From contig JAGVGM010000306.1 in the NCBI GenBank assembly GCA_020057065.1, positions 1 to 41,167 of the forward strand: a DNA stretch of 41,167 nucleotides, given 5' to 3'. Origin of the DNA: Thermodesulfovibrionia bacterium. Lineage in GTDB: Bacteria > Nitrospirota > Thermodesulfovibrionia > UBA6902. The stretch's first letter is position 1; every line of letters starts with the position of its first letter. This document shows, piece by piece, positions 14,739 to 30,389 of this stretch. Made by a program: the position numbers and the translations under genes. The notes below the pieces were generated by a model. The model saw only the letters and a program-made list of their open reading frames with translations. It searched no databases and was not told the DNA's origin.

Positions 14739-15443
14739 TCAGGAATAAAACAGATTTTTCAAAACAGCTCTTAATATCCTGTAGCCCACTATTGCTATAC
14801 CCTTTATATTGCCTGTAAACTTTGACTTTCCCGTGCCTTTACGGTAACTGACAGGCACTTCCAGTATCTTGTATCTTTTTCTTACTGCCTTGCACTGCAT
14901 TTCAATAGTCCAACCCAGATTATCATTCATGTCAAGTTCCAGCAGCTTATTAAATTTAATAGCTCTAAAAGGGCCCAAATCAGTATATTTAAAACCATAT
15001 AAAAACCTGATTAATGTAATTGCCAGAAGATTACCGAAACGCACCGGCATACGGAGAGCGCCTTCTTCAACATTCCCCATCGCCCTTGAGCCAAGAACGA
15101 GGTCATAATCTTCACTGATTATGGGAGCAACAAGTTTGCCTATCTCATCCGGATGATCGCTGTAATTCCCATCAACAAAGACTATGATATCCGGATTCTT
15201 TGTTTTCAGGTATTCAATCCCTCTGAGACACGGATATCCATACCCTCTTTTTGATTCAAACAGGAGAGTAGCGCCCTGCTCTTTTGCTATCTCGGCAGTC
15301 CGGTCACTGCTGCCGTTGTCTATAACAACCACTTCATTAACCAGATCCTTCGGCATATCATTGAGAACAAGCGGCAAGGTTTTCTCCTCGTTAAGGACAG
15401 GGATTATAACAGCTATTTTTTTATGATTAACAACTTCAGTCAT
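14739..15443 (-). CDS. GT2 glycosyltransferase, DPM1/polyprenol-phosphate type
   Basis: A 234-residue GT-A-fold enzyme that probably moves a sugar from a nucleotide donor to a polyprenyl phosphate at the cytoplasmic membrane face. KIAVIIPVLNEEKTLPLVL (about 9-27) is the nucleotide-binding start, VVVIDNGSSDRTAEIA follows, and VFVDGNYSDHPDEI (about 88-101) holds the metal-binding acidic residues. VLGSRAMG and YRKGTGKSKF are further family marks. There is no transmembrane tail beyond a weak helix near the C-terminus. Its ATG overlaps the stop of the SNF2 helicase gene (ATGA, 15440-15443), so it is translated with the defence locus even though its known biochemistry is envelope glycan synthesis. 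The lipid-linked sugar could feed the membrane glycosyltransferase at 28311-30389. Confidence 0.85.
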   Translation of the reverse strand: MTEVVNHKKIAVIIPVLNEEKTLPLVLNDMPKDLVNEVVVIDNGSSDRTAEIAKEQGATLLFESKRGYGYPCLRGIEYLKTKNPDIIVFVDGNYSDHPDEIGKLVAPIISEDYDLVLGSRAMGNVEEGALRMPVRFGNLLAITLIRFLYGFKYTDLGPFRAIKFNKLLELDMNDNLGWTIEMQCKAVRKRYKILEVPVSYRKGTGKSKFTGNIKGIAIVGYRILRAVLKNLFYS

Positions 15444-18274
15444 GTTTGGATTCTCTCCACAATCCTCGGCTTCGGCACTATTATCGATAACGACAACACA
15501 TCTACAGGCATTAACGGCTCGACTGATACCTGACCACTCTTAATGGTCTTTCTCACACGCTCATATGATTCCAATAGTGCGTTAGCTCTTTCTCTGGATA
15601 GTTCTCCTAATTTTTTATTTATGGATTCAAAACTATTGAGGGCAGTATTCACCCAATACTTCTTATCAGAATCAGAAATATTTTCAGACGGCGCGGCCTT
15701 TTCAAATATATCCTCTGCTTCCTCTTTTGATATCCAGGTCTCTGAAGCCCCGCTTCCTCGAAAGCCTGCGACTATACATTCCTCTGCAAAAGAAGATTTT
15801 TCAAATTTCTTATCCTTAATTAAGAATCTTATTCTCAGCAATAAAAGCGTAGTAACGGCATCTACATCTCTGGAGCGTATCACACCGCATCTTGCAGCGA
15901 TATTACGGTTTCCCTCAGATTGTAATGCTGAGTTTAATAAATACTCAGCCAGAGTGACTGAAAGGGGATGGTTTCTTGATACGTAAGTTACATCCTCAAC
16001 AGCAAGATGCTCAAATTGTATTTTTGATATTTTATTCCTGGACAATTTGAACTGAACTGCCTGAGGTAACCGTGACACATCGATTAATTGATGCTTACTT
16101 ATCTGTGACAGGGGACTGCCCAGTCTCTGACACGCAATTTTAATAAAGGTCTCTACAACCTCAGAGTTTCCAAGTATAGCCTCTGATACCTTGAGTTCCT
16201 GAGCAACTTCATCAGGCTTGATGGCATGCTGGGCAAAACGAGTACGGCTTTTCTTTTCTTTTTCAACAGCGCTATCCCATTTGCGGTGTACATCAACAAT
16301 CAATTCTTCTGAAGAGAACAGGCTTAGTTGGTCTGCACTATCTTTTCCCCTCAAAAAGAGTGCTTTCAATACCGTTTCCATAACACTTTCACTATCTACT
16401 GGTAACGGTACAGTTATTCCTAAAGTTTTATGTATCTTCTTTGCCTTCCGCAATAAGACATCCAGGACTGCGCCATCGATGGGATTGTCAGCGCCATATA
16501 TAAGAATCGCTTTGACAACCGGCTTTATCTGTCTGAACCTGTCAACTCTTCCTTCCCGCTGTTCCAATCTATTAGGATTCCACGGCAGATCATAATGGAC
16601 AACAGCATTGAAATGTTCCTGGAGATTAATACCTTCACTCAGACAATCAGTTGCAACTAAAACACGCTGGGCAGATTTTGCTAATTCATTTACCCTGATT
16701 TCTCTTTCATCGTCAGAATTTTCACTCGTTACCGCAATAACATGAATATTCTTAAATTTCTGGCTGAGTCTTTTTTGAAGGTATTGTGCAACATATTGCG
16801 CTGTCGAAATATACCGGCAATATACGATCGGGCTGTATCCATCCTTTATTAATTCATTGATTACAGCTTCCGCTTTTAATATTTTTGTATCGCCTTCTTC
16901 CTTGAGAGATTCAGCATCCTTTATGAATTCACGCAATTTTCTTTTTTCAGTCTCAGTAAATGACAATTGGCTTTCATTTACTACATGCGTGGGAACAACG
17001 TCTTCGACATTTTCGACATCAGTTGGATCGAGTATATAAGACGAATAATCAATATCTTCTGTCACTTCAGCCCCTGTCATTTTTTCAATTCTTGCTGAAA
17101 GAGCAGCTGTCGCTGCAGCAGGGCTCGACATAACACATCGCAGCAAGGCAAGCGCAGCCCAGTAGCGAACGCGCTGATGGACTTTATTTTGCGTATCATC
17201 AGATATAACTAACTCCCTGGCAAATTTATATATATTTTCAAAAAGCAGCTTGTATTCTTTTGATAATGTATATGGTTCTTCCGGTGAGTCACGCTCAGGA
17301 AATGCCGTATCAGCGCCCATCCACTGTTTTACGTCTGCCCTGCGGCGCTGGATCAGATGATGTGCCAGTTCCACCCTCTGATTCTCACTTAGCACTTCCA
17401 GGTTTAAATTCTCAAATGCGGGTTTAATGAATCCAAGAAGTGATAGAAAAGATTCTTCTATACCGCTGTGAGGTGTTGCTGTTACGAGAAGAATATGTTT
17501 ATCTTCTTTTCTGGCTAAATCAAAAACAAGCTTATGCCGCTGCTGTTGGGATACTGACTGACCAGCCGGTCGTGAACAGCCATGTGCTTCGTCAACAATA
17601 ACAAACTCCGGACAATGTAGAAGGAATGCGTTATTGTATTTCGCCGACTTAATAAAATCTATGCTTACTATAATGTGAGGATAGTACTGGAATACACTTA
17701 TATCCTGCCGTGGTAGTTTCCTCTCCAGTTTGGCAAGAGTTCTTGTGTTTATTACTTCTGCTGAGATATTGAATTTTATCAATAACTCTCTTTGCCACTG
17801 ATCACAGAGATAAGGCGGACAAACAACCGCGATCCGGCCTATTTCCCCGCGATCCAGTAGTTCTCTGGCAATAAGAGCAGATTCGATAGTTTTCCCAATA
17901 CCAACATCATCTGCTATCAGCATCCGAACAGGGTTTAAGCGGAGAGCCATCAATAAAGGAACAAGCTGGTATGGGCGTGGATAAAATGATAAATGACCCA
18001 TTGATCGGAACGGGCCTGCGCCATGTCTGAGGAGCAAGCGTGCAGCATTGCGAAGCAGGCGTGCTGACTCAAAGTCGCCGATGTCATTGACGGTAGGCCA
18101 TTCTAATTCTGCCGGCTTAAGGTTATTTTGCTCTAATGGAAGATAAAGTCCGCATGTATCATACTCACTGCCGGTTAAAGGATGTAGCGGCAGCACGTCT
18201 TTTTCCATGGAAGGCATAACGACCCATTTTCTGCCGCGAAATTCAACCAATGATCCGACGGTATATGTGCTCAT
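15440..18274 (-). CDS. drmD: DrmD-like SNF2-family helicase (DISARM-type)
   Basis: A 944-residue superfamily 2 helicase/translocase. The N-terminus (YTVGSLVEFRGRKWVVMPS, about 4-22) matches the opening typical of DrmD. Walker A is DDVGIGKT (122-129), the Walker B box is DEAH (228-231, in FVIVDEAH), and TATPHSG is motif III. The C-terminal lobe has ATDCLSEGINLQEHFNAVVH and the arginine-finger motif EQREGRVDRFRQ. The long C-terminal third has no motif I recognise. DrmD marks class 1 DISARM, which restricts phage DNA together with an adenine methylase. Here the gene overlaps the DUF1998 helicase upstream by ATGA (18271-18274), pointing to co-translation and a shared complex. RapA-like or other SNF2 proteins are the alternative. 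Confidence 0.83.
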   Translation of the reverse strand: MSTYTVGSLVEFRGRKWVVMPSMEKDVLPLHPLTGSEYDTCGLYLPLEQNNLKPAELEWPTVNDIGDFESARLLRNAARLLLRHGAGPFRSMGHLSFYPRPYQLVPLLMALRLNPVRMLIADDVGIGKTIESALIARELLDRGEIGRIAVVCPPYLCDQWQRELLIKFNISAEVINTRTLAKLERKLPRQDISVFQYYPHIIVSIDFIKSAKYNNAFLLHCPEFVIVDEAHGCSRPAGQSVSQQQRHKLVFDLARKEDKHILLVTATPHSGIEESFLSLLGFIKPAFENLNLEVLSENQRVELAHHLIQRRRADVKQWMGADTAFPERDSPEEPYTLSKEYKLLFENIYKFARELVISDDTQNKVHQRVRYWAALALLRCVMSSPAAATAALSARIEKMTGAEVTEDIDYSSYILDPTDVENVEDVVPTHVVNESQLSFTETEKRKLREFIKDAESLKEEGDTKILKAEAVINELIKDGYSPIVYCRYISTAQYVAQYLQKRLSQKFKNIHVIAVTSENSDDEREIRVNELAKSAQRVLVATDCLSEGINLQEHFNAVVHYDLPWNPNRLEQREGRVDRFRQIKPVVKAILIYGADNPIDGAVLDVLLRKAKKIHKTLGITVPLPVDSESVMETVLKALFLRGKDSADQLSLFSSEELIVDVHRKWDSAVEKEKKSRTRFAQHAIKPDEVAQELKVSEAILGNSEVVETFIKIACQRLGSPLSQISKHQLIDVSRLPQAVQFKLSRNKISKIQFEHLAVEDVTYVSRNHPLSVTLAEYLLNSALQSEGNRNIAARCGVIRSRDVDAVTTLLLLRIRFLIKDKKFEKSSFAEECIVAGFRGSGASETWISKEEAEDIFEKAAPSENISDSDKKYWVNTALNSFESINKKLGELSRERANALLESYERVRKTIKSGQVSVEPLMPVDVLSLSIIVPKPRIVERIQT

Positions 18275-21200
18275 TTTCTTACTACTCCAAATATATCTTT
18301 ATTTTCTTCTATCTGATCCTCTATCGGTCTGTCATAGCGAATGACAATCACTCTGTGCCCCATATTTCTCAAATCCACACGGACTCTTTCATCTTCTTTC
18401 TTCTGTTTGGGTTCATCATGTGGTGTACCGTCGCAGAAGACACAAACATACCCATTCTCATAATAGAAATCAGGAATCGAATAATAATTTGCAAGAGCTT
18501 TCTGTGCAAAGTCCGGTAAACGCCGTCCTTCTCTGTATAAATGGTCCAAAAATATCTTTTCCAGTTGCGAACGGGTATCTGTCTGCCTCCTGAGCCACTC
18601 GAATTGTTCGTCATACGTGCGATGTTCATATGTCCGGTGTGTCTTGCCCTGAGAAATTTGCAGGAGCAGATCCTTGATGAGGTGACGATGAAGCACAGTA
18701 TGGTCTCTTTGATTTCTGTATGTAAGCAGACAATTGTAGCATGCACGGGCACAGTCAATTTCTTTATTGATCTCTTCACCAGTATTTCTATCAAAATGGC
18801 ATATATCAAGCGCCTCTTGTGCTACACGACTTAAGGCATCGTTATCCTCAACAAGCCTTTGGAGCACTCCAACACCTCCTTCCGCAGCTTCCCAGTACAA
18901 AATACTTCTCTGCTCTTCCTGACCTATTCTCTCGGAGGCAAGCTCTTTTTCATCTATTTGATACACAGCGCATATACCTTTGTGTAATGCGTGCTGAAGG
19001 TTGGCAAGCTGCGCGTCATTACTATCATGATCTGTCTGGATCAGAAGAATGTTTCTTGTATCCTTAACAAATACCTGCACCCCCGTTCGAATGTTCTCCT
19101 GTCCTACTCCCAACGCTGTATCGCTGATATCTCCAGGTCTTTTGTCCCAAACACCGTTTGTCAGATCAAGGTTGAAACCTGACGTACTTCTCCTGCGCCA
19201 CTTTCTATTGATCCGCCACAAGTGGGCAGCCGGACCATATGAGAGTCTCAGGATTGTCTTGCCGTCTTTATCAGAAACCTCACCAGATACCTTACTTATT
19301 TTTCCGTCTTTACTCGAAAATCTGAAGTGTGTTGTTATTTCATAGCCCTTTCTAATGCGCTCATCTTCATTACAGGTAATGCGATCCGTGCGCCATGTTG
19401 ATACAGTCGTCATTTCAAAAAGATGATGGAGATATTCACTGCTGTTCGCATTCAATGTGGTATGACAATATTCACAGAGATCTGACTTAATACTGTCTCC
19501 GATATGAAAGGTTCCGCATTTCTTGCAAATCTTTGTCTGAGTAAAACGTGACTCAGGATCACCAACAGGTATTAAGCTCTTAACAACACTGTATTTGCGT
19601 CCTTCCTGATATATTATGTTTCTCGGACCAAACTCTGATACCGCAAGAAAACGAGGACGTGATATAAAATCACCCTGTCCTATACCCTTTGAGATATATG
19701 CACGAATAGGAAGTCGCGGGAAATTATATCCTGGTAAAAAGCCCTCGCTTGCAAGATACCGATAGGGATAAAAATCTGAATCATCCCGTTTGACCCGGTT
19801 ACACAAGATATCTATTTGATGCAATGCCTCTTTGGCATTGCGATCTGCCTTCTGCCTTTCTTCTGCATTTAATCCCGTAATATGCGCATTCGCCAATTTC
19901 TCCTGTGATTCCCTGAGAAGCCGGTAGGCTACTTTATAAAGTTCTCTCCAACGATTGAATGAATCATCAAATTCTCTCTCAGATGATCTTACGGTCTGCT
20001 CAAGCCATTCCTCTGAGTACCAGTCTGCTGATTTGAGATCAAATTCACACTGTTTAAGAACAGACCGGCAATCCTCGAGACATTTTGTAATTCTATTTTC
20101 AGACAGATGTATATGACGTTTAATATTCTCAACTAACGGCAGGTCTTTTTGCGAAAGATCAATCAGCTCTGTAATTGAACCTTTTAATTCAAGGCCTACT
20201 ATTGCAAACCATATTGAATGAATATGGGATTTCACGAGGTCCTCATTGCCCAGATCAAGCCGTGGAGGCACCACAACGCCTGCAACCATTGAGGCCCTTC
20301 TTCTAAAGAAATACTGGTCATGCCCGCTTCCTGTAGAACAATATGTAGTAATAAAGGCAGACTGTCCTGAACGCCCTGCGCGTCCGCTTCTCTGTGCATA
20401 GTTGGCAGGTGAAGGGGGCACATTCCTTAAATGCACAACATTGAGATCGGCAATATCAATGCCGAGTTCCATTGTGGGGGAACAGAACAGACACGAAAGA
20501 TCACCCTTTCGGAATTTCTTCTCCCGCTCTTCACGGTCTTCGGGTTTTGTCTGACCGGTGTGCTCTCTCCCTTCCAGATGTCCTAACTGTACAGCGCCCT
20601 CTCTATAGAATTGTACAAAGAAGGGATTGGCTTTCCGTTCTAATCGTTGACTGCTCCCTGAAAAACTCAAAGTTCGAACTGGATCAAGCGGCTGAACCAC
20701 TCCTTCTCCCTTTGCCCAGCGTAAAACAATTGTGCGAAGCTGTATCCTGAAATCGTCACCTTTTACTTCTTTATCAAGATATCCTCCACGGTTCAACACA
20801 TCTACTAAAGTTTTCAGCAATTGTTCATATTCTGATTCATTCAGCGGAGAAAATAATTCAGGCCATGCGCGTGATGAACGCAGAAATTTTCCAATGACAC
20901 TTATCAATGCAAGACTCTTGTCCTTCGGTCTCCTGATTCCCCATGCAAACCATATGTTTTCTGCCAATCTTTCATCATCATCAAAATTCCAGGGCTCTTT
21001 TAGTGTATCGTTTACTTTGCGTCTGAGAATTTCGTGATATTCCCCTTTTAAACATCGTGCATTCAGGGCAAGGGAGTGGCGCAGATGGTCAAGAAATGCC
21101 TTTGCCACCTTATAACGGGTTTCAGCGCCTGCTTCAGACAATAAATCATTTTTCCCCCACAGTGAAGTGTCGTTACATACTTCTTTTAATCCCAAATATT

Positions 21201-23388
21201 CTATATTGAGAAGCCCGCACTGTTCGAGATTCGGCTGAATAACACGCCAGCCTCTGCGAAGATCCTGATAAATCCTGTATTCAATATATTCAGTCAATGC
21301 TTCTCTGTTCAGTTGAGGCTGCACTCCGATATCACCGGGGTTTTGCGCATACGCAGCGGCAGGCAGGCCGAGCGTTTTAAAAACTTCAGGAGCAACTGTG
21401 GAGTGATCAAGAGTGCCTGAATCAGGAAGCGCGCGGTATATGGCGCTCCGGAGAAATCCGATCTGAACAAAATCATTAAAATGCCCTGCCTGAAGAGATG
21501 CGTCCTGTCGGTTATCAGTAAAGCTCATTACTTTATTGGCCTCAGGTTCGATATCCTTGTCATGCCGCATCTGGTTCAATTGTGATAAACAGAGAATCGT
21601 GGTGGCGGAACTTCTGCCCTCGCTTGAAAGCTGAGCCAGTTTTGAGAAATCTCTTGTCCTCTGATCATAAGCAATGTTGCATGAAAGACACGTCATAAAA
21701 GGCGCTTTCAGATACCATCCCAAAGCCGCTTCCTCTGCCGGCTTGTTTGAATACGTTCCATCCGGAGATATGTACATTCTTTCCGGGACAAACTCCTTGT
21801 ACTTTGAATCCAGTACAGGCCCTCTATTTGTCTGACGGAACCAGTTTTCAGGTAGTTCAGAAATCCTCTCTTCGCTCCATAGTGGATTGCCCTCTTTTTC
21901 TATTAAGATGTACCCGTCTTTCACTGACTCCTGATCCATTTCAACAACATTGTCCGGAAGACGGGGCGAAATAGTATTGTCAGTTTCATTTTTTGTTACC
22001 TGATAGTATTCCTGTCCGCATATACGGCAAAAAACCATGGGTATAAGAAGCCTGTCTTTTCCTTCTTCTCCTTTTGTGTAATGCTGACCGCTCAGTGTGA
22101 GATGTCTCCTATCAACGGGTTCGAGCGTAGCGTAGACTGAATCCCCTTTCGATATAAACTGGTGAAGGCGGACAGCAAATACCGGCGAGTCTTCAGGAGC
22201 CGGATGGCGTAATTCGTTTCCTTTTTGAAGTAATACACGGATATTATTTTCACAAATATCGTTGTCAATATTGGTCAATTCGTGAAGCTTCTCTGCTCCC
22301 TCCTGAAGGGTAATCGGGATTCTTCTTTTATAAAAGATATCCTCTTTCTGAATGCCGAATGTCTCTTCTATCCAGGAGGTTAATGGATTGTTCACAAATT
22401 CACTGTAATTTTGAGGGAGATCATTGCTCATGCCTTCGATAAGTTTTTGAGCTGTGATATTCCCGCTGTATTGAATAGACTTTTTGAGTTTCTCATCGAT
22501 CACATTCTCATGTAGCACATTAACACCAAAGATTTTACCCGTTACATAGGCAACAGCCTTTCTCTGAGCTTCTCTCGTGCCCCCGGTCACCATGGTAGCG
22601 CTTGTTCCGATACAGAGGAGATTGTCATTTCCGCATCGCTGCCGCAACCTGCGCACCAGCATGCTAACATCAGCGCCTTGCCGGCCTGTGTAAGTATGTA
22701 GTTCGTCAAGTACAAGGAATTCCAGATTAGCAAGGGTGCGATCCAGAAAGACTGCTTCTCTGGGACGGGACATCATCAATTCAAGCATCACATAATTTGT
22801 AAGTAGGATATGAGGAGGATGCTGCTGAAGTTTTGTCTTTTCATCTAATTTTTCCTGCCCCGTATATCTGCCGAATCTTATCGGGCTGTTGCCTTCTCCA
22901 AGATTGTCCAATAAATTCCGAATCTCTGTTGCCTGAGAGTTAATGAGCGCATTCATTGGATATACGATGAGCGCGCGTACCTGTTCAGGTTCTGGATTGT
23001 TTTTTAGTATATGGTCAATAATCGGAATGAGATAAGTCAGGCTTTTGCCTGAACCGGTGCCGGTTGTGAGTATATAATGCTCTTTCCTCGCTGCTGTTCT
23101 TACTGCCTGCTCCTGATGATGATAAAGCTGAAATGACTTATTATCTTTCTTTCTGAAGAATATCTTTTCGCACAATGGATGAAGGAGTCCCTCAGAAACC
23201 AGTTGGGAAACGGTCTTGCCCATTTCATAGGAAGGGTTAAGCTGTACAAGGGGATTGGGCCAGAGGATCCCTGAAGAAAGCTCCTGGCTTACGAATTCAC
23301 GAATCCGCTCGTCCTGAATATTAAGGAAGCTTTCAATATACTGCTGATAGTCATTTATGACATTGTCTCTTAAATTAAAGATATTCAT
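18271..23388 (-). CDS. Giant DEAD/DEAH helicase with DUF1998 and a C-terminal Vsr/DUF559-like domain (DrmA-DrmB-like fusion)
   Basis: A 1705-residue protein. Helicase lobe 1 has Walker A TTGTGSGKS (108-116), DELH (228-231) and GTSAT (261-265). Lobe 2, near 980-1050, has SPTMELGIDIADLNVVHLRN and YAQRSGRAGRSG. Cysteine pairs CRICG, CLSCN and CKKCG...CEYC suggest zinc sites. The DUF1998 signature CARACYNCLLTYRNQRDH lies near 1565. The last 75 residues (PDFYYENGY, then FCDGTPHDEP and DERVRVDLRNMGHRVIVIRY) follow the Vsr/DUF559 nuclease pattern, though the usual Glu before the DG is replaced. In DISARM the helicase (DrmA) and DUF1998 (DrmB) are separate chains whose summed length is close to this one. 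MrfA/YprA and Druantia DruE are the other DUF1998 helicases to consider. No good ribosome site is seen at the ATG. Confidence 0.85.
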   Translation of the reverse strand: MNIFNLRDNVINDYQQYIESFLNIQDERIREFVSQELSSGILWPNPLVQLNPSYEMGKTVSQLVSEGLLHPLCEKIFFRKKDNKSFQLYHHQEQAVRTAARKEHYILTTGTGSGKSLTYLIPIIDHILKNNPEPEQVRALIVYPMNALINSQATEIRNLLDNLGEGNSPIRFGRYTGQEKLDEKTKLQQHPPHILLTNYVMLELMMSRPREAVFLDRTLANLEFLVLDELHTYTGRQGADVSMLVRRLRQRCGNDNLLCIGTSATMVTGGTREAQRKAVAYVTGKIFGVNVLHENVIDEKLKKSIQYSGNITAQKLIEGMSNDLPQNYSEFVNNPLTSWIEETFGIQKEDIFYKRRIPITLQEGAEKLHELTNIDNDICENNIRVLLQKGNELRHPAPEDSPVFAVRLHQFISKGDSVYATLEPVDRRHLTLSGQHYTKGEEGKDRLLIPMVFCRICGQEYYQVTKNETDNTISPRLPDNVVEMDQESVKDGYILIEKEGNPLWSEERISELPENWFRQTNRGPVLDSKYKEFVPERMYISPDGTYSNKPAEEAALGWYLKAPFMTCLSCNIAYDQRTRDFSKLAQLSSEGRSSATTILCLSQLNQMRHDKDIEPEANKVMSFTDNRQDASLQAGHFNDFVQIGFLRSAIYRALPDSGTLDHSTVAPEVFKTLGLPAAAYAQNPGDIGVQPQLNREALTEYIEYRIYQDLRRGWRVIQPNLEQCGLLNIEYLGLKEVCNDTSLWGKNDLLSEAGAETRYKVAKAFLDHLRHSLALNARCLKGEYHEILRRKVNDTLKEPWNFDDDERLAENIWFAWGIRRPKDKSLALISVIGKFLRSSRAWPELFSPLNESEYEQLLKTLVDVLNRGGYLDKEVKGDDFRIQLRTIVLRWAKGEGVVQPLDPVRTLSFSGSSQRLERKANPFFVQFYREGAVQLGHLEGREHTGQTKPEDREEREKKFRKGDLSCLFCSPTMELGIDIADLNVVHLRNVPPSPANYAQRSGRAGRSGQSAFITTYCSTGSGHDQYFFRRRASMVAGVVVPPRLDLGNEDLVKSHIHSIWFAIVGLELKGSITELIDLSQKDLPLVENIKRHIHLSENRITKCLEDCRSVLKQCEFDLKSADWYSEEWLEQTVRSSEREFDDSFNRWRELYKVAYRLLRESQEKLANAHITGLNAEERQKADRNAKEALHQIDILCNRVKRDDSDFYPYRYLASEGFLPGYNFPRLPIRAYISKGIGQGDFISRPRFLAVSEFGPRNIIYQEGRKYSVVKSLIPVGDPESRFTQTKICKKCGTFHIGDSIKSDLCEYCHTTLNANSSEYLHHLFEMTTVSTWRTDRITCNEDERIRKGYEITTHFRFSSKDGKISKVSGEVSDKDGKTILRLSYGPAAHLWRINRKWRRRSTSGFNLDLTNGVWDKRPGDISDTALGVGQENIRTGVQVFVKDTRNILLIQTDHDSNDAQLANLQHALHKGICAVYQIDEKELASERIGQEEQRSILYWEAAEGGVGVLQRLVEDNDALSRVAQEALDICHFDRNTGEEINKEIDCARACYNCLLTYRNQRDHTVLHRHLIKDLLLQISQGKTHRTYEHRTYDEQFEWLRRQTDTRSQLEKIFLDHLYREGRRLPDFAQKALANYYSIPDFYYENGYVCVFCDGTPHDEPKQKKEDERVRVDLRNMGHRVIVIRYDRPIEDQIEENKDIFGVVRK

Positions 23389-23485
23389 ACGCGTCTCATG
23401 ACTCTGTTCATCTTACCCTCCCTAAAGGTAAATAAGAGGACATATCTTTACCTCTGCAAAGGGTAAATTCAATAAACAGCCTGTC

Positions 23486-23538
23486 CTGCGCTTTCAGCGC
23501 AGTAAACCCCGTAGAAGACCTTCGTCCTTCTAACGGGG
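23486..23538 (-). terminator. Two adjacent hairpins between vapC and the giant helicase
   Basis: CTGCGCT-TTC-AGCGCAG (23486-23502) is a perfect 7-bp stem. Five bases on, CCCCGT...ACGGGG (23507-23538) forms a longer imperfect stem with AGAAG/CTTCT arms. They lie in the 156-base gap after vapC on the transcribed strand. A clear U-tract is lacking, so attenuation, RNA processing or a repeat element are as likely as true termination. Confidence 0.45.
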
Positions 23539-23544
23539 TAAATC

Positions 23545-23967
23545 CTATTTAAAGGGGTTTCTGATCGCAACTCCCTTTATGGTCTGTTTATCTGACAGAT
23601 CTTCAGAAAAAATTGTTTTGGCCCCTCCGGCGAGAGCCGCCGCTACTACAAGAGAGTCCCAGAAAGAGTACTTGTATCTTTCATGTAATTCAGTCGCTTC
23701 TATTATTGTGTCTACATTGATTATCACAGTGTCCCATTTTGAAAGTCTCTTGATAGTCTCTCTGGCAAATGGTGCGTCCACCGGCGCAGAGATTTTCTTT
23801 GTTACCGTAACAAAGAACTCTTGCAGGGTCTGGGTGCTTAATAACCCGAGGCCCGATCGCCACAGATCTTTCATAATATCTATGGCGATCTGATGTTTGC
23901 GCCCGGCATCGAGGTCGTAGGCATAGACAATCACATTTGTATCGACAAAGACTTTATCTCCGTTCAT
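23545..23967 (-). CDS. vapC: VapC-type PIN-domain toxin
   Basis: A 140-residue PIN-domain ribonuclease, the toxin of a type II pair. The metal-binding acidic residues are visible: the Asp of VFVDTNVIVYAYD (near residue 8), the Glu of TLQEFF, and the Asp of YSFWDSLVVAAAL, followed by FSEDLSD. I choose ATG 23967, with GAGG six bases upstream, over GTG 23979. It overlaps the end of vapB by 14 bases, the standard antitoxin-toxin coupling. The pair interrupts the methylase-helicase order of the defence locus and could stabilise it by addiction. Confidence 0.88.
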   Translation of the reverse strand: MNGDKVFVDTNVIVYAYDLDAGRKHQIAIDIMKDLWRSGLGLLSTQTLQEFFVTVTKKISAPVDAPFARETIKRLSKWDTVIINVDTIIEATELHERYKYSFWDSLVVAAALAGGAKTIFSEDLSDKQTIKGVAIRNPFK

Positions 23968-24199
23968 GCAGTTCCTCACGCGTGCAGGGCATACGCCCGC
24001 CTGTGCCGAGATGGAGACCCTTTTCCATACGCCTGATTTCAGTATCCATCGCTTCCTTATATCCTGTATCCTTCCTGATCTTCTCTTCGAGGGACTCTCT
24101 GATTAAGGCGCTAAGCGATTTTTCTTCTCTCAATGCCAATGCCTTAGCCTTCTTTATTGTAGCTTTGGGAAGGGATAGTGTTAAATTTTGCCTTTCCAT
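23954..24199 (-). CDS. vapB: VapB-type ribbon-helix-helix antitoxin
   Basis: An 81-residue protein with an N-terminal ribbon-helix-helix: strand QNLTLSLPKATIKKAKALA (about 4-22), then LREEKSLSALIRESLEEKI. The C-terminal half (KEAMDTEIRRMEKGLHLGTG) would wrap around the toxin. AGGAGG lies six bases upstream of the ATG. It probably represses its own promoter through the long palindrome at 24216-24254, alone and with VapC. Confidence 0.85.
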   Translation of the reverse strand: MERQNLTLSLPKATIKKAKALALREEKSLSALIRESLEEKIRKDTGYKEAMDTEIRRMEKGLHLGTGGRMPCTREELHERR

Positions 24200-24215
24200 G
24201 AAAACCTCCTTTTAT

Positions 24216-24254
24216 ATATCACATAACTATGTGTAGCACATATTTATGTGATAT
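24216..24254. promoter_or_regulatory. 39-bp palindromic vapBC operator with overlapping promoter
   Basis: ATATCACATA-AC-TATGTG is followed by TAG and then CACATA-TT-TATGTGATAT: a palindrome that is perfect apart from the AC/TT steps and the centre, made of four CACATA/TATGTG half-sites. It lies 17 bases upstream of vapB. A TTGACA -35 box on the minus strand (24254-24259) abuts it, so RHH dimers bound here would cover the promoter. It shows vapBC has its own promoter within the larger locus. Confidence 0.75.
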
Positions 24255-24266
24255 GTCAAATTATTC

Positions 24267-27200
24267 TCATTTCCCCCCAAACAGCCTGTCCCATGCCTCC
24301 AGCACAAGCCTGCGGGTGCGGTATTCGCCGTATTGGCGGATTTCTTTTTCTTTCAGAACCCGGAAGGTCTCGCCAGGGAAGTCCGGGCCGTAAACGTCTT
24401 GCGGATCGAGGATATAGCGCAGTTCGTCACGCGTAAGTCCGTAAAGCTTTGCGTAATAGGCATCCAGCTCAGCACGCAGCAACGCCCTGCGCTCTTCATC
24501 CCACTTGAACGGTGGGCCGTCATAGTCCATGTCATCAGCAAAGGGTTTCATATCGTGCGCTGTATAGACAAGTTCGAGGACTCTTGCTGAAATGAATTCG
24601 ATATCTTTTTCTGAATAATCATTAGGAGGCAGCGTCGGAAGTTGTTTTAAGATAAAGTAGCTCAATGAAGTACCACCAATTTTTTGTCTTGCCAAATAAT
24701 CAAAAACAAGTCCGTTGACATTTGCAAGGAAACAAGTAACGCGAACTTTTTCAATCAAACTCTGAAAAAAGACTAACGGCTTTTTGTGTCCTACACCAAC
24801 AATTGGAATAACACCAAAAATGGCAGTTCTCTCATTAGTTGCATTTGTAACATCTCGAAAACCTGTTAACCATTTATATGCCCATCCTGAAAGTCTATTG
24901 AATACTTCCGCCTTTTCAACCCAGTAACGCGGTCTTGTTTCATAGTCTGATGACAGCTTCTCATCTAAAAAAACATCACGAGTGTCAGTACCATGTTCTT
25001 TATATGTTCCAAACCGGTGATCAAACTGCCAGATCATCTTTGCTTCATACAATGGCAATCTGTCATCGGCAGGCTCAGTGTAAAAGAGGTGACTATCATT
25101 AGCCATGTGAAACATTGTCATGAACCGAATCCCCCAGGGATTTTCTTTCTTTTTTTCATTCAACAATACCGGAACCCTGCTGTAGATTTTCTTTGTCAGT
25201 TCCGCATCAAATATTGTTCTGAATACGGGTGTGGTGCGTGTGTTGGGATTGATGAGTTCAATATCGTCAGGCGAAAGAGTAAACCGCCTCATGTTATCGT
25301 CAAGATGCTCGGTGCGTGTAAGAAAGAATGCATATTCAGTTTTTTCAATTGAATTGTTGGAAGTAGTAAAGAGACAGAATTTATAACGACTGTCCACGGC
25401 AGGAAACAGTTTCTCTCTGTTTTCAAAATCAAACAAACTTACCAGCGCCTTTTTGTCATTCAGGGTTCCAAAGAATGCCTTGCAGGTATCATCCGTAGCA
25501 ATTCCCGTCGGTACGATGATACCTGCCCGTCCGTGAGGATTAAGAACCCTGCGTGACAGTTCCGCAAATAGGGCGTATGTATTAATATCGCCGACTGCTG
25601 TTAAGGGGAATCGTTCGCAAACTCTTACAAACCTGCTGTCTGATTCAGCATCGTGTTTGGCAGTTTGAAATTCATTAAAGAGGGCAGGATTGTTTTCCGG
25701 GAGTTTTTTTATGAGCTTTTCACGCGCTGCTTTGTTGGGAGCATTTGCTATCTCAGGAGCACGTGTGGCAAAGAATTCCTGCTCCTGAAGTTTTATCCTC
25801 TCCCATGGTGGATTGCCGAGGACAACATCGAACCCACCCTCACCCTGACCCTCTCCCATCAAGGGCGAGGGAACAGAAGAGAAAACCTCTGGAAATTCCA
25901 ATGCCCAGTGAAAAAATCGGTGTTTGGCGGCAAGTGCATTTGCCTTCCCCACAAGCTGCCCATGCGCTGCCTTCGGGCTTTCTATATAGCGCATCAGCCT
26001 TTCATGTGTCGGGATCGCAGGATCATCAAGCCTTGTCAGTGGATAAAAGAATGCGGCAGTCCAGATATTCGCTGCTGTCCAGTCTTTCCACCATCTCTCA
26101 TCTGTCCTGATCTGTTGATACCTCTTATGCTTTTGTTCTACATCCTCCGGCGAATTATCATCAATGGCATCCACATTCCGCGCCTGTTCCGCAAAGCTTT
26201 TCAGGTCTGCATCCAATGATCCCTTTATGTCAAAAGGGAGTCTTGTCTGTCCGCTTTCCCGGTCTCTTCTTTCCTTGCGGTTTATCGCCTTTATCTGTTT
26301 GGCAACCTCTTTGTCATCACCCGTTACCGGTTTAAAGGCATCGTCAGGAATCCCGTCCTTCAAACGCTCCAGTTTGTCCAATCCGATAAGACTGTTGCCG
26401 CATTTAATTCGGTGATCTAAAAAGGTCAGTGGATACCCTTTGTTATGCCCTTCAAGCCAAAGCGCAACCTTGCAAAGGTCTACAGCAAGGGGATTAAGGT
26501 CAACTCCATAGATGCAATGCTGGATAACATCTCTTACTGCTTTGCGAAATTCTGCCGGTGTCGGTTCTTCTTCTCCTGAACGCACTTTCGCCAGTTCTTT
26601 CCCGATGCGTCTTGCGGCTGCGAGAAGGAAATGTCCTGAGCCTGTGGAAATGTCGCATACCTTAAGTGAGAGTAACGTCCGTTCTTTCTCTTCCTTTGTC
26701 TTTGCATTTTTTAAACGCTCTTCGATTACCGGAACGAGGGCGCTCTTGATAAGCTCCTGAACAAGCTCATGACGTGTGTAGTAGGAGCCGGTTGATTTCC
26801 GCTCTGTACCAAAGGCAAGGGTGAATTTAAGGGGAGAATCGGGAGTTATCACCGGATGATAATCGAGCAGGCTTTCATATACAGACCCGAGTTCTTCGAC
26901 ATCGAGATAGGCGTAGTTTATCCGGCGGTGAGTCTTTTCATCCTTGAAAATAGACATGTGAGCAAACCCGTGGAGGAAATCCCGGTTATAAAGAAAAGCA
27001 TTTTCAAGATCGGGCATTGCCTTTGAACCAAAGAGATCCCCGTTCAATGCGGTAACGCCCAGTTTAGAGGCAAGGCTTGAATGGCAATACAATCTGAAAT
27101 TTTGTTTGACCCCTTCCCATAAGTCCCAATATCTTTCTTCAGGATCAACAGGCCTTTCAACCTTTTCCCTGAGTCGTGTGATGCTATAGTATGTTTCATA

Positions 27201-28145
27201 TATCCTGCAGAGATGATCATCCTTCGGATCAGGCCCCACAAGATTACGCTCCTCAGAAACCATCAGAAAGAGAAACCGGTAAATCAAACGGAGAAGCTGC
27301 TGGTAATATGTGAAGGCGTCTATTTTATTTTCAAGGATATGTTGTCTTAATTCACTGTTGTCAGGGTGATTGAGAAATCCATTGCCGAATATCTTGAGAG
27401 CATTTTCAACGCCGTCACGAAGACGCTCTCTTACTCTTCCGCCTGCCTCAATTCCCTGTTGATAATACTGCTCCAATAAACATTCATGAGCAGATTCCAT
27501 ATCCCTCGGCCAGCGGCTGCGATGCACAAGGCGGTAAAAAACCTGAAACTCCGCGAAATGCTCCCCCTCCATTATCTGCTTAAGGTCAAATTCCAGATAG
27601 GTAGGTCGGCTAAGGCGCTCTGAATCGCGCAGAAGCCGTAATTGATATCCATTGGTAACAATACCCCAGAGATGTTCTGTGCGATTAAGATATTCCTGAA
27701 CAAGCGCATGAGGAGAGATCCGGGGACGTCCTGTCGGTGGCCGTGTGTCTATATTGATATTGGCGCCTTCAATATGTATCGGCAGGCCCTCATCGCCGCC
27801 GCCGAGACGGTGCGATATTGCATATGTCTGCCCGCCCGCTTGCGCCGCACTTTTTGTAAAGGTTATCTTGTCAAACCCCAGCGTCCTGAACAGGGGAAGT
27901 ATCCACTGCTCTCTTGTCTGAGTCGCCCCGGTTTCGCCTTCTTTAATCCTGCCAAGCCCATGCTGAAATGCCTCCCAGTAAGCCTTTGCATCCGACCAGC
28001 AGGCTGCTATCTCGTCAATCAGGCGGATTTTGCCGTTAAGCCCGAAGTCCGAAGACTTCTGCCCGACCGCTTCCCCGGTCTGAACTTGTGCCAACAGATC
28101 AGCCGTTATCAGCGAGCCTTCAGAATGGATAGTTTGAAAGTTCAT
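24267..28145 (-). CDS. Eco57I-type adenine-N6 DNA methyltransferase, DrmMI/PglX-like
   Basis: A 1292-residue protein expected to methylate adenine in host DNA and mark it as self. The SAM-binding motif DISTGSGHFLLAAARRIG begins at 498, YGVDLNPLAVDLCKVALWLE follows at about 546, and the catalytic NPPW is at 778-781 (FDVVLGNPPWERIKL). The C-terminal part (800-1290) would hold target recognition. The N-terminal 200 residues look like the nuclease position of type IIG enzymes, but I see no convincing D-ExK set, so cleavage activity is doubtful. A repeat-encoded insert (VPSPLMGEGQGEG) lies just before NPPW. It is the first gene of the defence locus, 32 bases after a small membrane protein. No pglZ, brxC, hsdS or hsdR is present. 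Confidence 0.87.
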   Translation of the reverse strand: MNFQTIHSEGSLITADLLAQVQTGEAVGQKSSDFGLNGKIRLIDEIAACWSDAKAYWEAFQHGLGRIKEGETGATQTREQWILPLFRTLGFDKITFTKSAAQAGGQTYAISHRLGGGDEGLPIHIEGANINIDTRPPTGRPRISPHALVQEYLNRTEHLWGIVTNGYQLRLLRDSERLSRPTYLEFDLKQIMEGEHFAEFQVFYRLVHRSRWPRDMESAHECLLEQYYQQGIEAGGRVRERLRDGVENALKIFGNGFLNHPDNSELRQHILENKIDAFTYYQQLLRLIYRFLFLMVSEERNLVGPDPKDDHLCRIYETYYSITRLREKVERPVDPEERYWDLWEGVKQNFRLYCHSSLASKLGVTALNGDLFGSKAMPDLENAFLYNRDFLHGFAHMSIFKDEKTHRRINYAYLDVEELGSVYESLLDYHPVITPDSPLKFTLAFGTERKSTGSYYTRHELVQELIKSALVPVIEERLKNAKTKEEKERTLLSLKVCDISTGSGHFLLAAARRIGKELAKVRSGEEEPTPAEFRKAVRDVIQHCIYGVDLNPLAVDLCKVALWLEGHNKGYPLTFLDHRIKCGNSLIGLDKLERLKDGIPDDAFKPVTGDDKEVAKQIKAINRKERRDRESGQTRLPFDIKGSLDADLKSFAEQARNVDAIDDNSPEDVEQKHKRYQQIRTDERWWKDWTAANIWTAAFFYPLTRLDDPAIPTHERLMRYIESPKAAHGQLVGKANALAAKHRFFHWALEFPEVFSSVPSPLMGEGQGEGGFDVVLGNPPWERIKLQEQEFFATRAPEIANAPNKAAREKLIKKLPENNPALFNEFQTAKHDAESDSRFVRVCERFPLTAVGDINTYALFAELSRRVLNPHGRAGIIVPTGIATDDTCKAFFGTLNDKKALVSLFDFENREKLFPAVDSRYKFCLFTTSNNSIEKTEYAFFLTRTEHLDDNMRRFTLSPDDIELINPNTRTTPVFRTIFDAELTKKIYSRVPVLLNEKKKENPWGIRFMTMFHMANDSHLFYTEPADDRLPLYEAKMIWQFDHRFGTYKEHGTDTRDVFLDEKLSSDYETRPRYWVEKAEVFNRLSGWAYKWLTGFRDVTNATNERTAIFGVIPIVGVGHKKPLVFFQSLIEKVRVTCFLANVNGLVFDYLARQKIGGTSLSYFILKQLPTLPPNDYSEKDIEFISARVLELVYTAHDMKPFADDMDYDGPPFKWDEERRALLRAELDAYYAKLYGLTRDELRYILDPQDVYGPDFPGETFRVLKEKEIRQYGEYRTRRLVLEAWDRLFGGK
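25832..25872. repeat. In-frame CCCTCACCCTGACCCTCTCCC repeat inside the methylase
   Basis: CACCCTGACCCTCTCCC followed by ATCAAGGGCGAGGG is the widespread GAGGG/CCCTC interspersed repeat, normally found between genes. On the coding strand it gives SPLMGEGQGEG (about residues 760-770), placed between FPEVFSS and GGFDVVLGNPPW. The reading frame is kept. Confidence 0.75.
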
Positions 28146-28177: not shown

Positions 28178-28321
28178 TCACTCCCAAAACTCCTTCCACC
28201 ACTTTATCTGATTTTCAAGAAAAAACGATCTCTCCGGAACCGTGAAATAAATGACTGCCATTATCAGTACAACAAGTATAAACAATACATAAAATATGTC
28301 ATCCCCTGATTTAGACTTCAC
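28178..28321 (-). CDS. Small one-helix membrane protein (47 aa)
   Basis: A GTG-started frame runs to a TGA at 28178-28180. The product has a short polar start, one hydrophobic helix (IFYVLFILVVLIMAVIYF, about 9-26), then a charged, tryptophan-rich tail with KWWKEFWE. GTG 28321 overlaps the last 11 bases of the membrane glycosyltransferase gene, and AGG lies nine bases upstream, so coupled translation is likely. Small single-helix proteins are common next to membrane glycosyltransferases in surface-glycan loci. I do not recognise a family with certainty. Confidence 0.55.
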   Translation of the reverse strand: MKSKSGDDIFYVLFILVVLIMAVIYFTVPERSFFLENQIKWWKEFWE

Positions 28322-30389
28322 TTTCTATAACCTGTGCAATCTTGTAATTTTCATCTGAGAATAGTGTTTTAAATTTCACTCCCGGCTGGTCAGACTGTCC
28401 GGAAGAGGATATATTTCCACCTCCCTGGATCCATCTGTCTTCACCCGAATTTTTTCTGATTAATACATATGTCACCTTATGTTCACCGAGTTTTCTCAGC
28501 CATTGTTTATAATCGTCAGCCTTTATATAAACCATCTTATTGGAAAATGCACTATTCCACATAGGAGATAAAAACAGCGGTTCATATGTATATGCAAGTG
28601 TTTCCCCCTGTGAAATGTTCCTGTTTATCCACGTCCAGTATCCGTAGTCCTGTCTCGCATATAGATCGATATTAAACGGAGCATGCGCGGCAATTATTCG
28701 TTCAGCCGCCGGTAATTGTATGAACTTTTTGATCTGTTTAGGGGTAACACAAGGTGAATTTGAGATCAAGAAAGTATATCCTGCAAGAAGAATTGCAATA
28801 ACCCTGAATATATCATTTCTTTTCTGAAATTTATCAAAAACAAGTCCGAACGAGAGCGCACCAAGCCCGATAATGAAAATAACGTATCGCGGATTCCAGT
28901 TCCTTGGATACATAAGAAATGCAGAGGCAACAATTATCAATAACAAAATGAACCTGTAGCGCCTTTTCATTAATGCATAAACAAACGACAACACAATGCT
29001 CGGAAGAAACAATATAAACCATATGGGGCCGAACCCACCCAACCTTGAATCATAGAGGTAATATTCCACTTTATCCAACCATACATATAACGGCCTTGTG
29101 AACGGATGCAATTTATTGATAATCTCGGGGGCCGGTTCTATTATACCCTGATATAGTCCCTTAAAGATTGTATTATTTAAAATAGATATTTCCATGGGAT
29201 AAACAGGGTTGCCGTAAATTATCCAGTTCTTTATGTACCAGTAACCGCCCATAAAAAGAACCGGGATGAAAAAATAGAAAAAATAAAGTTGAAAAGTTTT
29301 TGTCGCCATTTTCTTCCATCTCAATAGTCCTGACTCACAAGCATTAGATCGTCCAGGAAATTCCCGAATAATGACTACAGCCGACAATAGAGCAATAAAT
29401 AAAGGCCCCGAGCCTTTTGAACCAAGTAAAATACCAGCCGTCAGTCCGGCCATTACAGTCGTGATATTTCGTTTCTGAAAACACGTCCCTCCCGCATCAC
29501 CTTCGTAGGGGCGGGTTTCAAACCCGTCCTTACATGGCATATCATCCATAAGAAAATTTAAAGCCACAAGAAACAGCACAGAAACAGCAACATCCACATA
29601 GTTCGTTGTAGATTGCAGGATGACTATTGGAGTAAAGAAAAACAAAAGTGACGAATATATTGCAGCTCTTTCTTTAATATTCAACTTGACGGCGATGCTG
29701 TATATTGCAAGAACTCCGGCTATTGTGAAAAGAAGCTGGCTGAGGTCCGTTATAATATCATTCTTGAGAAAAATAATGTTCCAGATAAAGAACAGCTCAA
29801 TATTTTTGGGAAAGATATTGATAAACTGCTCTATAAATGAGTTGTTGGGGATTTCCTGAATGGCGCCGCTCTGCATTATATAACCTGCGATCGGGAGGTG
29901 ATACCATAAAGCATCCCAGGTATAAGAAGGAAAAAGATATCCTGAAAATATTATCCAGCAGACTGACATAAAGAAAAGCATAAAAATGAAGAACAATATC
30001 AGATCGCTCTTAATTACTGTCCAAAACCAGGCAGCCTTGCCTGAAATCTCCGTTAGAATATCTTTTAATACAAGCTGTCCACGGGATATTTTCTCACCCC
30101 CCCACTTGCTAAAGAGGGGCGAAGGAAAGATAATTGTCTTGCCGGTTGATATTGAACAACTCAGAACAACCAACGACACAGAAACATTAATCCAGAAAAG
30201 CTGCGCTGCATAAAGTTTCTTTAACACGACGCCCAGGAGCATCTCAGTCGCTATTATCTGCGTTAAGCCAAGGATAAATGTACTTATTGTCCTGTCAACA
30301 AAAGATAAGAGCTCCTTTTGTCTGAAAAGAAAAACATACCAGGAAGCAAATAAAAGAATATTTACTATTATGTAGGCAATGATATTCAA
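28311..30389 (-). CDS. Multi-pass membrane glycosyltransferase (GT39/PMT-like)
   Basis: A 692-residue integral membrane protein with about ten or more hydrophobic helices and a soluble C-terminal part. After the second or third helix comes YTWDALWYHLPIAGYIMQSG (near 155-175), the acidic loop typical of GT39/ArnT-like enzymes, which use a polyprenyl-phosphate-linked sugar on the outer face. It could accept sugars loaded by the DPM1-like enzyme at 14739-15443. Two repeat-derived inserts are in frame: FPSPLFSKWGGEK (about 88-100) and a GFETRPYEGDAGG stretch (near 287-299). Both lie in loops between hydrophobic segments. The TPR gene ends directly before its start (30390 and 30389), so the two form an operon. 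Confidence 0.82.
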   Translation of the reverse strand: MNIIAYIIVNILLFASWYVFLFRQKELLSFVDRTISTFILGLTQIIATEMLLGVVLKKLYAAQLFWINVSVSLVVLSCSISTGKTIIFPSPLFSKWGGEKISRGQLVLKDILTEISGKAAWFWTVIKSDLILFFIFMLFFMSVCWIIFSGYLFPSYTWDALWYHLPIAGYIMQSGAIQEIPNNSFIEQFINIFPKNIELFFIWNIIFLKNDIITDLSQLLFTIAGVLAIYSIAVKLNIKERAAIYSSLLFFFTPIVILQSTTNYVDVAVSVLFLVALNFLMDDMPCKDGFETRPYEGDAGGTCFQKRNITTVMAGLTAGILLGSKGSGPLFIALLSAVVIIREFPGRSNACESGLLRWKKMATKTFQLYFFYFFIPVLFMGGYWYIKNWIIYGNPVYPMEISILNNTIFKGLYQGIIEPAPEIINKLHPFTRPLYVWLDKVEYYLYDSRLGGFGPIWFILFLPSIVLSFVYALMKRRYRFILLLIIVASAFLMYPRNWNPRYVIFIIGLGALSFGLVFDKFQKRNDIFRVIAILLAGYTFLISNSPCVTPKQIKKFIQLPAAERIIAAHAPFNIDLYARQDYGYWTWINRNISQGETLAYTYEPLFLSPMWNSAFSNKMVYIKADDYKQWLRKLGEHKVTYVLIRKNSGEDRWIQGGGNISSSGQSDQPGVKFKTLFSDENYKIAQVIESEV
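29505..29533. repeat. 29-bp GTAGGGGCGGGTTTC palindrome, copy 1, inside the membrane glycosyltransferase
   Basis: Near-perfect palindrome centred on GGGTTTCAAACCC, with GTAGGGGC and GTCCTTAC ends. On the coding (minus) strand it reads DGFETRPYE in frame. It matches the copies at 36463-36491 and 37336-37364. Confidence 0.88.
30095..30125. repeat. In-frame CCCCACTTGCTAAAGAGGGG repeat inside the membrane glycosyltransferase
   Basis: A CCCC...GGGG hairpin of the TCCCCCTTTGCTAAAGGGGGA class usually found between genes. On the coding strand it gives FPSPLFSKWGGEK at about residues 88-100 without breaking the frame. Confidence 0.65.

Follow-up and report, generated by a model that had tools for sequence, protein, structure and literature searches.

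ARMADA was defined in a preprint of September 2025 (Bell et al. 2025; PMC12458937) as the combination of genes for a YprA-family helicase, a BrxHII-like helicase, and a PglX-like methylase. As described there, the ARMADA YprA protein is nearer to Druantia than to DISARM and carries a fused Vsr-type nuclease. Type I systems are described without ArmD and with the gene order YprA-SNF2-methylase or SNF2-methylase-YprA, which is general for Type I, gene order being strict only for Type II. In the same account, YprA-family proteins normally consist of a single chain, which two separate genes encode in the DISARM branch. In this study, the 41,167-nucleotide (nt) contig JAGVGM010000306.1 of a Thermodesulfovibrionia bacterium (assembly GCA_020057065.1; hereafter the window) was analysed, and the cluster at 15440-28145 is read with high confidence as an ARMADA Type I system with predicted anti-phage activity, complete and to all appearance intact. 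A first-pass annotation had described it as a DISARM-like defence locus with DrmA and DrmB fused and DrmC absent, possibly catalogued already under another name; ARMADA is very probably that name.

The phage tests reported in the ARMADA preprint concern Type II only, in E. coli NCTC 12900. Protection was lost completely when any one of the four genes was deleted, and also when the Walker motifs of ArmA and ArmC, the Walker A motif of ArmD, or the NPPW motif of ArmB were mutated; mutants in the ArmD Walker B motif and the ArmB S-adenosylmethionine motif showed a partial loss only, and the defence was non-abortive (PMC12458937). A 2026 review lists ARMADA with systems that restrict by unknown mechanisms (PMC12904381), and it is mentioned in passing in PMC13192584. 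For DISARM, DrmAB is reported to be activated by 5'-overhang DNA, and DrmC appears non-essential and showed no co-purification (PMC9142583).

The YprA, BrxHII-like SNF2, and PglX-like methylase genes form one co-directional cluster in the window, transcribed from the minus strand in the order methylase, ribbon-helix-helix (RHH) protein, PIN protein, YprA helicase, and SNF2 helicase. All five open reading frames (ORFs) lie on that strand, at the places and with the sizes given in the first-pass annotation. The SNF2 start overlaps the YprA stop by 4 nt, while 67 nt lie between methylase and VapB and 156 nt between VapC and YprA. For comparison, 80 of the 544 relatives listed, from named genomes, were kept as homologous loci, many on contigs that end early. 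Among these 80, the order YprA-SNF2-methylase was found in 43, SNF2-methylase-YprA in 9, YprA-SNF2 in 12, YprA alone in 12, methylase-YprA in 2, and others in 2. At least 5 kb was present on both sides of YprA in 38 of the 80, and an SNF2 helicase and a methylase accompanied it in all 38. Therefore, the gene set of the window is not a chance neighbourhood; it is widely shared by other genomes. The locus is of a defence type, as had been supposed. Within the phylum the system is patchy, with 13 of 395 genomes positive at E 1e-30 or better, the window's genome counted.

The YprA protein has Pfam matches to DEAD, Helicase_C, and MZB (the DUF1998 zinc domain, 36 bits), and thus combines helicase and DUF1998 in one chain, as first annotated. 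From the N-terminus it comprises RecA1, a long insert that contains two conserved CxxC pairs, RecA2, an OB-CON-DUF1998 canopy, and a C-terminal DUF559/Vsr-type nuclease; the names of the insert sub-domains follow PMC12458937, not homology. The predicted structure of residues 1-1100 had a mean predicted local distance difference test score (pLDDT) of 89.6, with MrfA as the best fold match. Residues 1040-1705 (pLDDT 90.6) matched MrfA (E 3.5e-9) and DrmB (E 8.5e-5) by Foldseek; therefore, the DUF1998 canopy is real. Conservation was assessed in 79 sequences, namely the window and those 78 of 87 loci with a YprA ORF of 1600-2150 amino acids (aa). K115 and D228-E229 occur in all 79, the cysteine pairs 454/457 and 567/570 are kept in 75-76, and the DUF1998 cysteines 1546, 1550, and 1553 in 74-75. 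The cysteines of a zinc module (C1288/C1291, C1305/C1308), placed in the OB region from the chain order, are nearly invariant in 69 sequences. Of the available rows, 69 of 78 were used in A4 and 60 of 79 in A5.

The last 110 residues hold E1610, D1640, D1653, H1657, and D1666, and positions 1610, 1640, and 1653 are jointly acidic in 69 of the 79 homologues, window included, which bears out the nuclease-like C-terminal domain first proposed. Six of these 69 were set aside, and 40 of the remaining 63 tails were scanned (A6); DUF559 was listed for 38 of the 40 and MTES_1575 for 32 (Pfam, E up to 1). The window tail itself scored 19.5 bits (E 0.00093) with DUF559, just under the cut-off of 20.6. 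The tail profile matched the endonuclease-like PDB entry 3hrl at E 0.0018, and Vsr (1cw0) at only E 0.31. Since Vsr is not among the 50 Foldseek matches listed for the whole 1040-1705 model, the nuclease assignment rests on sequence profiles and conserved positions.

A PDDEXK_3 gene (PD-(D/E)xK) lies between the SNF2 and methylase genes of two ARMADA I-type loci (L065:10449-10823 and L070:10239-10667), and the YprA tails of the same two loci have lost the nuclease acids. The combination suggests a nuclease swap.

In a tree of 53 rows, the window YprA lies within a clade of 37 rows (SH-like approximate likelihood ratio test 100). Three ARMADA II proteins, three Druantia III proteins, DrmA, MrfA, the second YprA of the host genome, and seven other rows fall outside it. 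A Deinococcus radiodurans plasmid homologue aligned with it over the whole length (39%, BLASTP). The summed bits for E. coli ARMADA II ArmC, DruE3, and an MrfA-like protein were 232, 209, and 114, respectively.

The methylase matches Pfam Eco57I (73 bits, 3.8e-20) and, in PADLOC, DrmMI first (258 bits) and then type IIG models. Its translation contains NPPW and DISTGSGH, the latter taken here to be motif I. It is 36% identical over 1444 columns to the methylase of a Natrinema SNF2-methylase-YprA locus, and its summed BLASTP bits were 188 with the E. coli ARMADA II methylase and 168 with a genuine DISARM methylase. The SNF2 protein has Pfam SNF2-related and Helicase_C domains and is 42% identical to the D. 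radiodurans homologue over its full length. PADLOC PDLC02853 covers it best (650 bits over 3-934), ahead of DrmD (298 bits); NCBIfam DrmD gave 321 bits, under its cut-off of 610. PDLC02853, which fits the whole length, is labelled DpdE, yet the DpdE model of NCBIfam scored 209 against a cut-off of 500; the label is a likely source of misannotation.

The assignment to ARMADA Type I follows from the three-gene association, the 37-row clade, and the Type I features of the YprA chain. These features are the single chain with its C-terminal Vsr-like nuclease, one zinc module in the OB region, and no ArmD (a UvrD-like helicase with a RelE-like domain) among the 25 different window ORFs, of 69, that the Pfam scan covered, the others being mostly short or antisense. 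The BrxHII-like SNF2 helicase and PglX-like methylase also agree with Type I; the order methylase-VapBC-YprA-SNF2 does not. ArmA, ArmB, and ArmC of Type II are homologous to the window proteins, but besides the missing ArmD the similarity to ArmC is weak and the Type II proteins fall apart from the clade.

Several points weigh against this reading. The YprA tree is a quick search with a root for drawing only and many long branches flagged. The members of the 37-row clade were collected by similarity, and the position of the window inside it is unsettled. WP_108720193.1 (the published Type I reference) and the helicases of Druantia I/II, Dpd, BRIGADE, and TALON are not among the rows of the tree. 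The Natrinema locus, although it has the archaeal Type I order, was placed outside the clade, so that the edge of Type I is unsettled here. The nuclease acids are missing in 10 of the 79 YprA proteins, and a fused nuclease is thus not universal. Helices 313-392 come after RecA1 in the model, and the putative BrxA-like insert appears in the model as a helical stretch only. The window order is neither of the Type I orders given in PMC12458937, and anti-phage activity of Type I would be an extrapolation from the Type II tests.

As such, the order methylase-YprA-SNF2 was found in the window only among 100 loci examined (window included); the sole other locus of the 99 that contains it (L137) has a second methylase after SNF2. 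Decayed traces of the window order are seen in a same-class genome (G047). In it, a 74-residue methylase tail (93% identity) is followed by unrelated genes and then by one ORF matching YprA 1-310 (84%) and SNF2 616-938 (63%). Genes for a metallophosphoesterase, an SMC-like ATPase, and a DUF4143 ATPase lie between two methylase-tail matches of that genome (L168:10976-17848).

For this locus, the best-supported scheme draws on Type II genetics and the structures of MrfA and DISARM. The methylase, judging from its family and motifs, would most likely mark host DNA at adenines, and the SNF2 and YprA helicases would jointly engage phage DNA, incoming or replicating, that is unmarked or single-stranded. 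Remodelling or feeding of the DNA is the probable task of the SNF2 protein, while the YprA motor would, as MrfA is reported to do, move 3'-5' on single strands beneath the OB-CON-DUF1998 canopy. The fused DUF559/Vsr-type domain would then cut the strand, and it is proposed that a separate DrmC is unneeded for this reason. No phospholipase-D domain or DrmC was listed among the scanned window ORFs, in agreement with the first description.

VapBC is most likely an independent addiction module that came to lie between the methylase and helicase genes. Upstream of it, an inverted repeat with arms at 24210-24233 and 24237-24260 (88% complementary, 3-nt spacer) is likely to be the autoregulatory operator of VapB, and this operator-promoter may now also drive the downstream helicase genes. 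Alternatively, VapBC could be a working part, either as a guard that would halt the cell on blockage of ARMADA or as a regulator that sets helicase expression through its operator. The operator-like palindrome inside the operon would suit such a role, as would the RelE-like toxin domain described for ARMADA II ArmD (PMC12458937) and the recurrence of toxin-antitoxin families between the core genes of other loci.

These other inserts include an unrelated PIN protein with an 81-aa partner (L052), PIN with XisHI (L063), DUF2283 with a weak DUF4258 match (L061), TumE (L072), HicAB (L084), a weak HicA (L076), and Fic (L112). Nuclease families are also found: PDDEXK_3 in the two loci described above, PDDEXK_13 in L120, and REase-ARP in L121. 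Toxin-antitoxin families account for about 11 of 55 inserted ORFs (PIN 3, HicA 2, HicB-like 2, TumE 1, Fic 1, AbiEii 1, DUF2283 1) and 2 of 54 flanking ORFs (HEPN 1, MqsA 1), with a post hoc Fisher p of 0.015 for ORFs that are non-independent and for inside and flank sets from partly different loci. Inserted ORFs came from loci with a gap of more than 150 bases and flanking ORFs were the nearest ones in loci with all three genes, both co-directional and of 60-400 aa. The count was made by hand from family lists, inside among 25 of 35 families listed, the window RHH protein not being among them. The families and their positions vary by locus, as independent insertions would, most loci are without such an insert, and the close relative G047 has a remnant without a VapB or PIN match. 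A working role for VapBC is therefore judged unlikely. Just as doubtful is the wider proposal that ARMADA Type I operons repeatedly acquire RNase-type toxin-antitoxin modules as a guard or second stage, as the RelE-like domain of ArmD may be in Type II, with the VapB operator controlling the helicases here.

The term 'VapC' does not occur in the main text of PMC12458937, and a literature search, mostly judged from listings, brought up no further publication that describes toxin-antitoxin modules in ARMADA operons. The methylase-YprA-SNF2 order and the VapBC genes with their palindrome inside the operon may be locally new features.

The proposal that the cluster is a class 1 DISARM variant, with DrmA and DrmB fused and DrmC lost, is the part of the first-pass annotation that did not stand. 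It draws on the DrmD-like and DrmMI-like scores of the other two proteins and on the fold match of the C-terminal half of YprA to DrmB. The DUF1998 fold, however, is common to the whole YprA family, and by fold the C-terminal half matches MrfA better than DrmB. The SNF2 protein reaches about half of the NCBIfam cut-off for DrmD. In PADLOC, the 1705-aa protein matches DruE3 best (328 bits), with 45 bits for DrmA, and a BLASTP comparison of the chain with DrmA and DrmB of the Pseudanabaena galeata DISARM gave no match at E 1e-3. The top matches of a PDB sequence search were 9tu7 (a 2108-aa DEAD/DEAH-box helicase), 9wae (a 1970-aa helicase), and MrfA (6znp); 9tu7 and 9wae are assumed, from size alone, to be Druantia-type proteins. 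In the tree, DrmA forms a very long branch outside the 37-row clade. The P. galeata system (plasmid NZ_CP112875; genes drmD, methylase, drmC, DUF1998 protein, drmA) shares with the window a related SNF2 helicase and methylase and a DUF1998 module, but has separate DrmA, DrmB, and phospholipase-D (PLD) nuclease DrmC. The chain thus resembles proteins of the DruE type and MrfA but, by BLASTP, neither DrmA nor DrmB, which is an outcome that the first-pass annotation itself had named as refuting, and the fused DISARM was rejected as very improbable. The other outcome named there, absence of the three-gene set from other genomes, is not what was observed. The DrmA model PDLC02569 had no matches in 295 genomes of the phylum, where no control matched either.

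A Druantia-type system, in which DruE would act with a methylase, is less probable still: although no helicase family with a model in the searched PADLOC version is nearer than DruE and 9tu7 is the top PDB sequence match, a genuine DruE3 scores 2692 bits with a DruE3 model, against 328 here, so that the YprA protein is a relative of DruE and not DruE itself, the tree separates it from three DruE3 proteins, no DruH-like match was listed for 9 ORFs scanned (PADLOC, best 25 families per protein), and Druantia III is described with DruH and DruE, with PLD-like domains in place of the DUF559/Vsr-like nuclease and with no methylase or SNF2 genes (PMC12458937, PMC13192584).

The features of the predicted ARMADA Type I locus are collected in Table 1.

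Table 1. Features of the predicted ARMADA Type I locus and the VapBC genes within it.
Feature	Position	Strand	Basis
PglX/YeeA-like adenine DNA methylase (ArmB-like), 1292 aa	24267..28145	-	Pfam Eco57I, PADLOC DrmMI
Candidate VapB operator: 24-nt inverted repeat	24210..24260		Just 5' of antitoxin gene
VapB-like RHH antitoxin, 81 aa	23954..24199	-	DUF6364 2.8e-8, RHH_1 1.4e-4
VapC-like PIN-domain toxin, 144 aa	23545..23979	-	PIN 1.6e-10, 42 bits; gene overlaps antitoxin gene
YprA-family helicase-nuclease (ArmC-like), 1705 aa	18271..23388	-	Pfam, PADLOC, BLASTP, tree, models
C-terminal DUF559/Vsr-type nuclease domain of YprA protein	18274..18615	-	Conserved positions E1610, D1640, D1653, H1657, D1666
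SNF2/BrxHII-like helicase (ArmA-like), 944 aa	15440..18274	-	PADLOC PDLC02853, Pfam SNF2-related + Helicase_C

The gap between VapC and YprA is structured (z -6.1). It resembled a leader RNA, but a hairpin repeat that is dispersed in the host genome and its relatives makes up the first 44 nt; this hairpin (23501-23544) has at least 6 further matches in the host genome, and another genome (G040) has 16 matches to the gap. An Rfam scan of the window gave 0 matches. Within the methylase gene, a palindromic G-rich repeat at 25837-25871 is in frame and encodes PSPLMGEGQGEG; two further near copies, with 2 mismatches each, are present in the genome. A glycosyltransferase ORF (14739-15443) overlaps the SNF2 stop by 4 nt, in the place that the methylase occupies in YprA-SNF2-methylase loci. 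Upstream of the methylase, a 692-aa protein (28311-30389) is without a match in Pfam, NCBIfam, or PADLOC. The window also holds L19, TrmD-type, RNase HII, and SRP54 genes, which indicate a bacterial host. Three sigma-70 region 2 matches were found in the host genome (assembly rated 6% contaminated), and searches for archaeal small-subunit rRNA and McrA gave no matches; an archaeal host was accordingly rejected.

The same genome contains a second defence-type YprA helicase (L044:9194-14107, G000 contig C205; 1637 aa, DruE3 600 bits), whose match ends before the C-terminal part of the DruE3 model and whose neighbour is a 700-aa protein without a Pfam match. Plasmid pMP1 of D. radiodurans has an ARMADA I-type cluster (L151:10001-21497) in which the methylase is annotated as two ORFs, and E. 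coli plasmid NZ_CP026578 has a Zorya-Druantia-ARMADA array. In a cyanobacterial SNF2-methylase-YprA locus, xisH and xisI lie between methylase and YprA (L063:7399-8135); among all 55 inserted ORFs, 2 match XisH and 2 match XisI. An RHH-PIN pair and a BrnTA pair also lie between genes of the genuine P. galeata DISARM (L159:24874-27149), and on a Pseudanabaena plasmid the genes for a 'helicase-related protein' and a large hypothetical protein have Phd and VapC genes between them.

PADLOC (2023) and NCBIfam (2026) label the parts of such loci DruE, DpdE, DrmD, and DrmMI, so that they can be read as broken DISARM or Druantia systems. For the present locus this misfiling is corrected, and the three-gene unit is robust across many phyla in the loci kept. 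The uncommon gene order and the repeated insertion of toxin-antitoxin and nuclease genes are leads to follow on the backup or rewiring of such systems.

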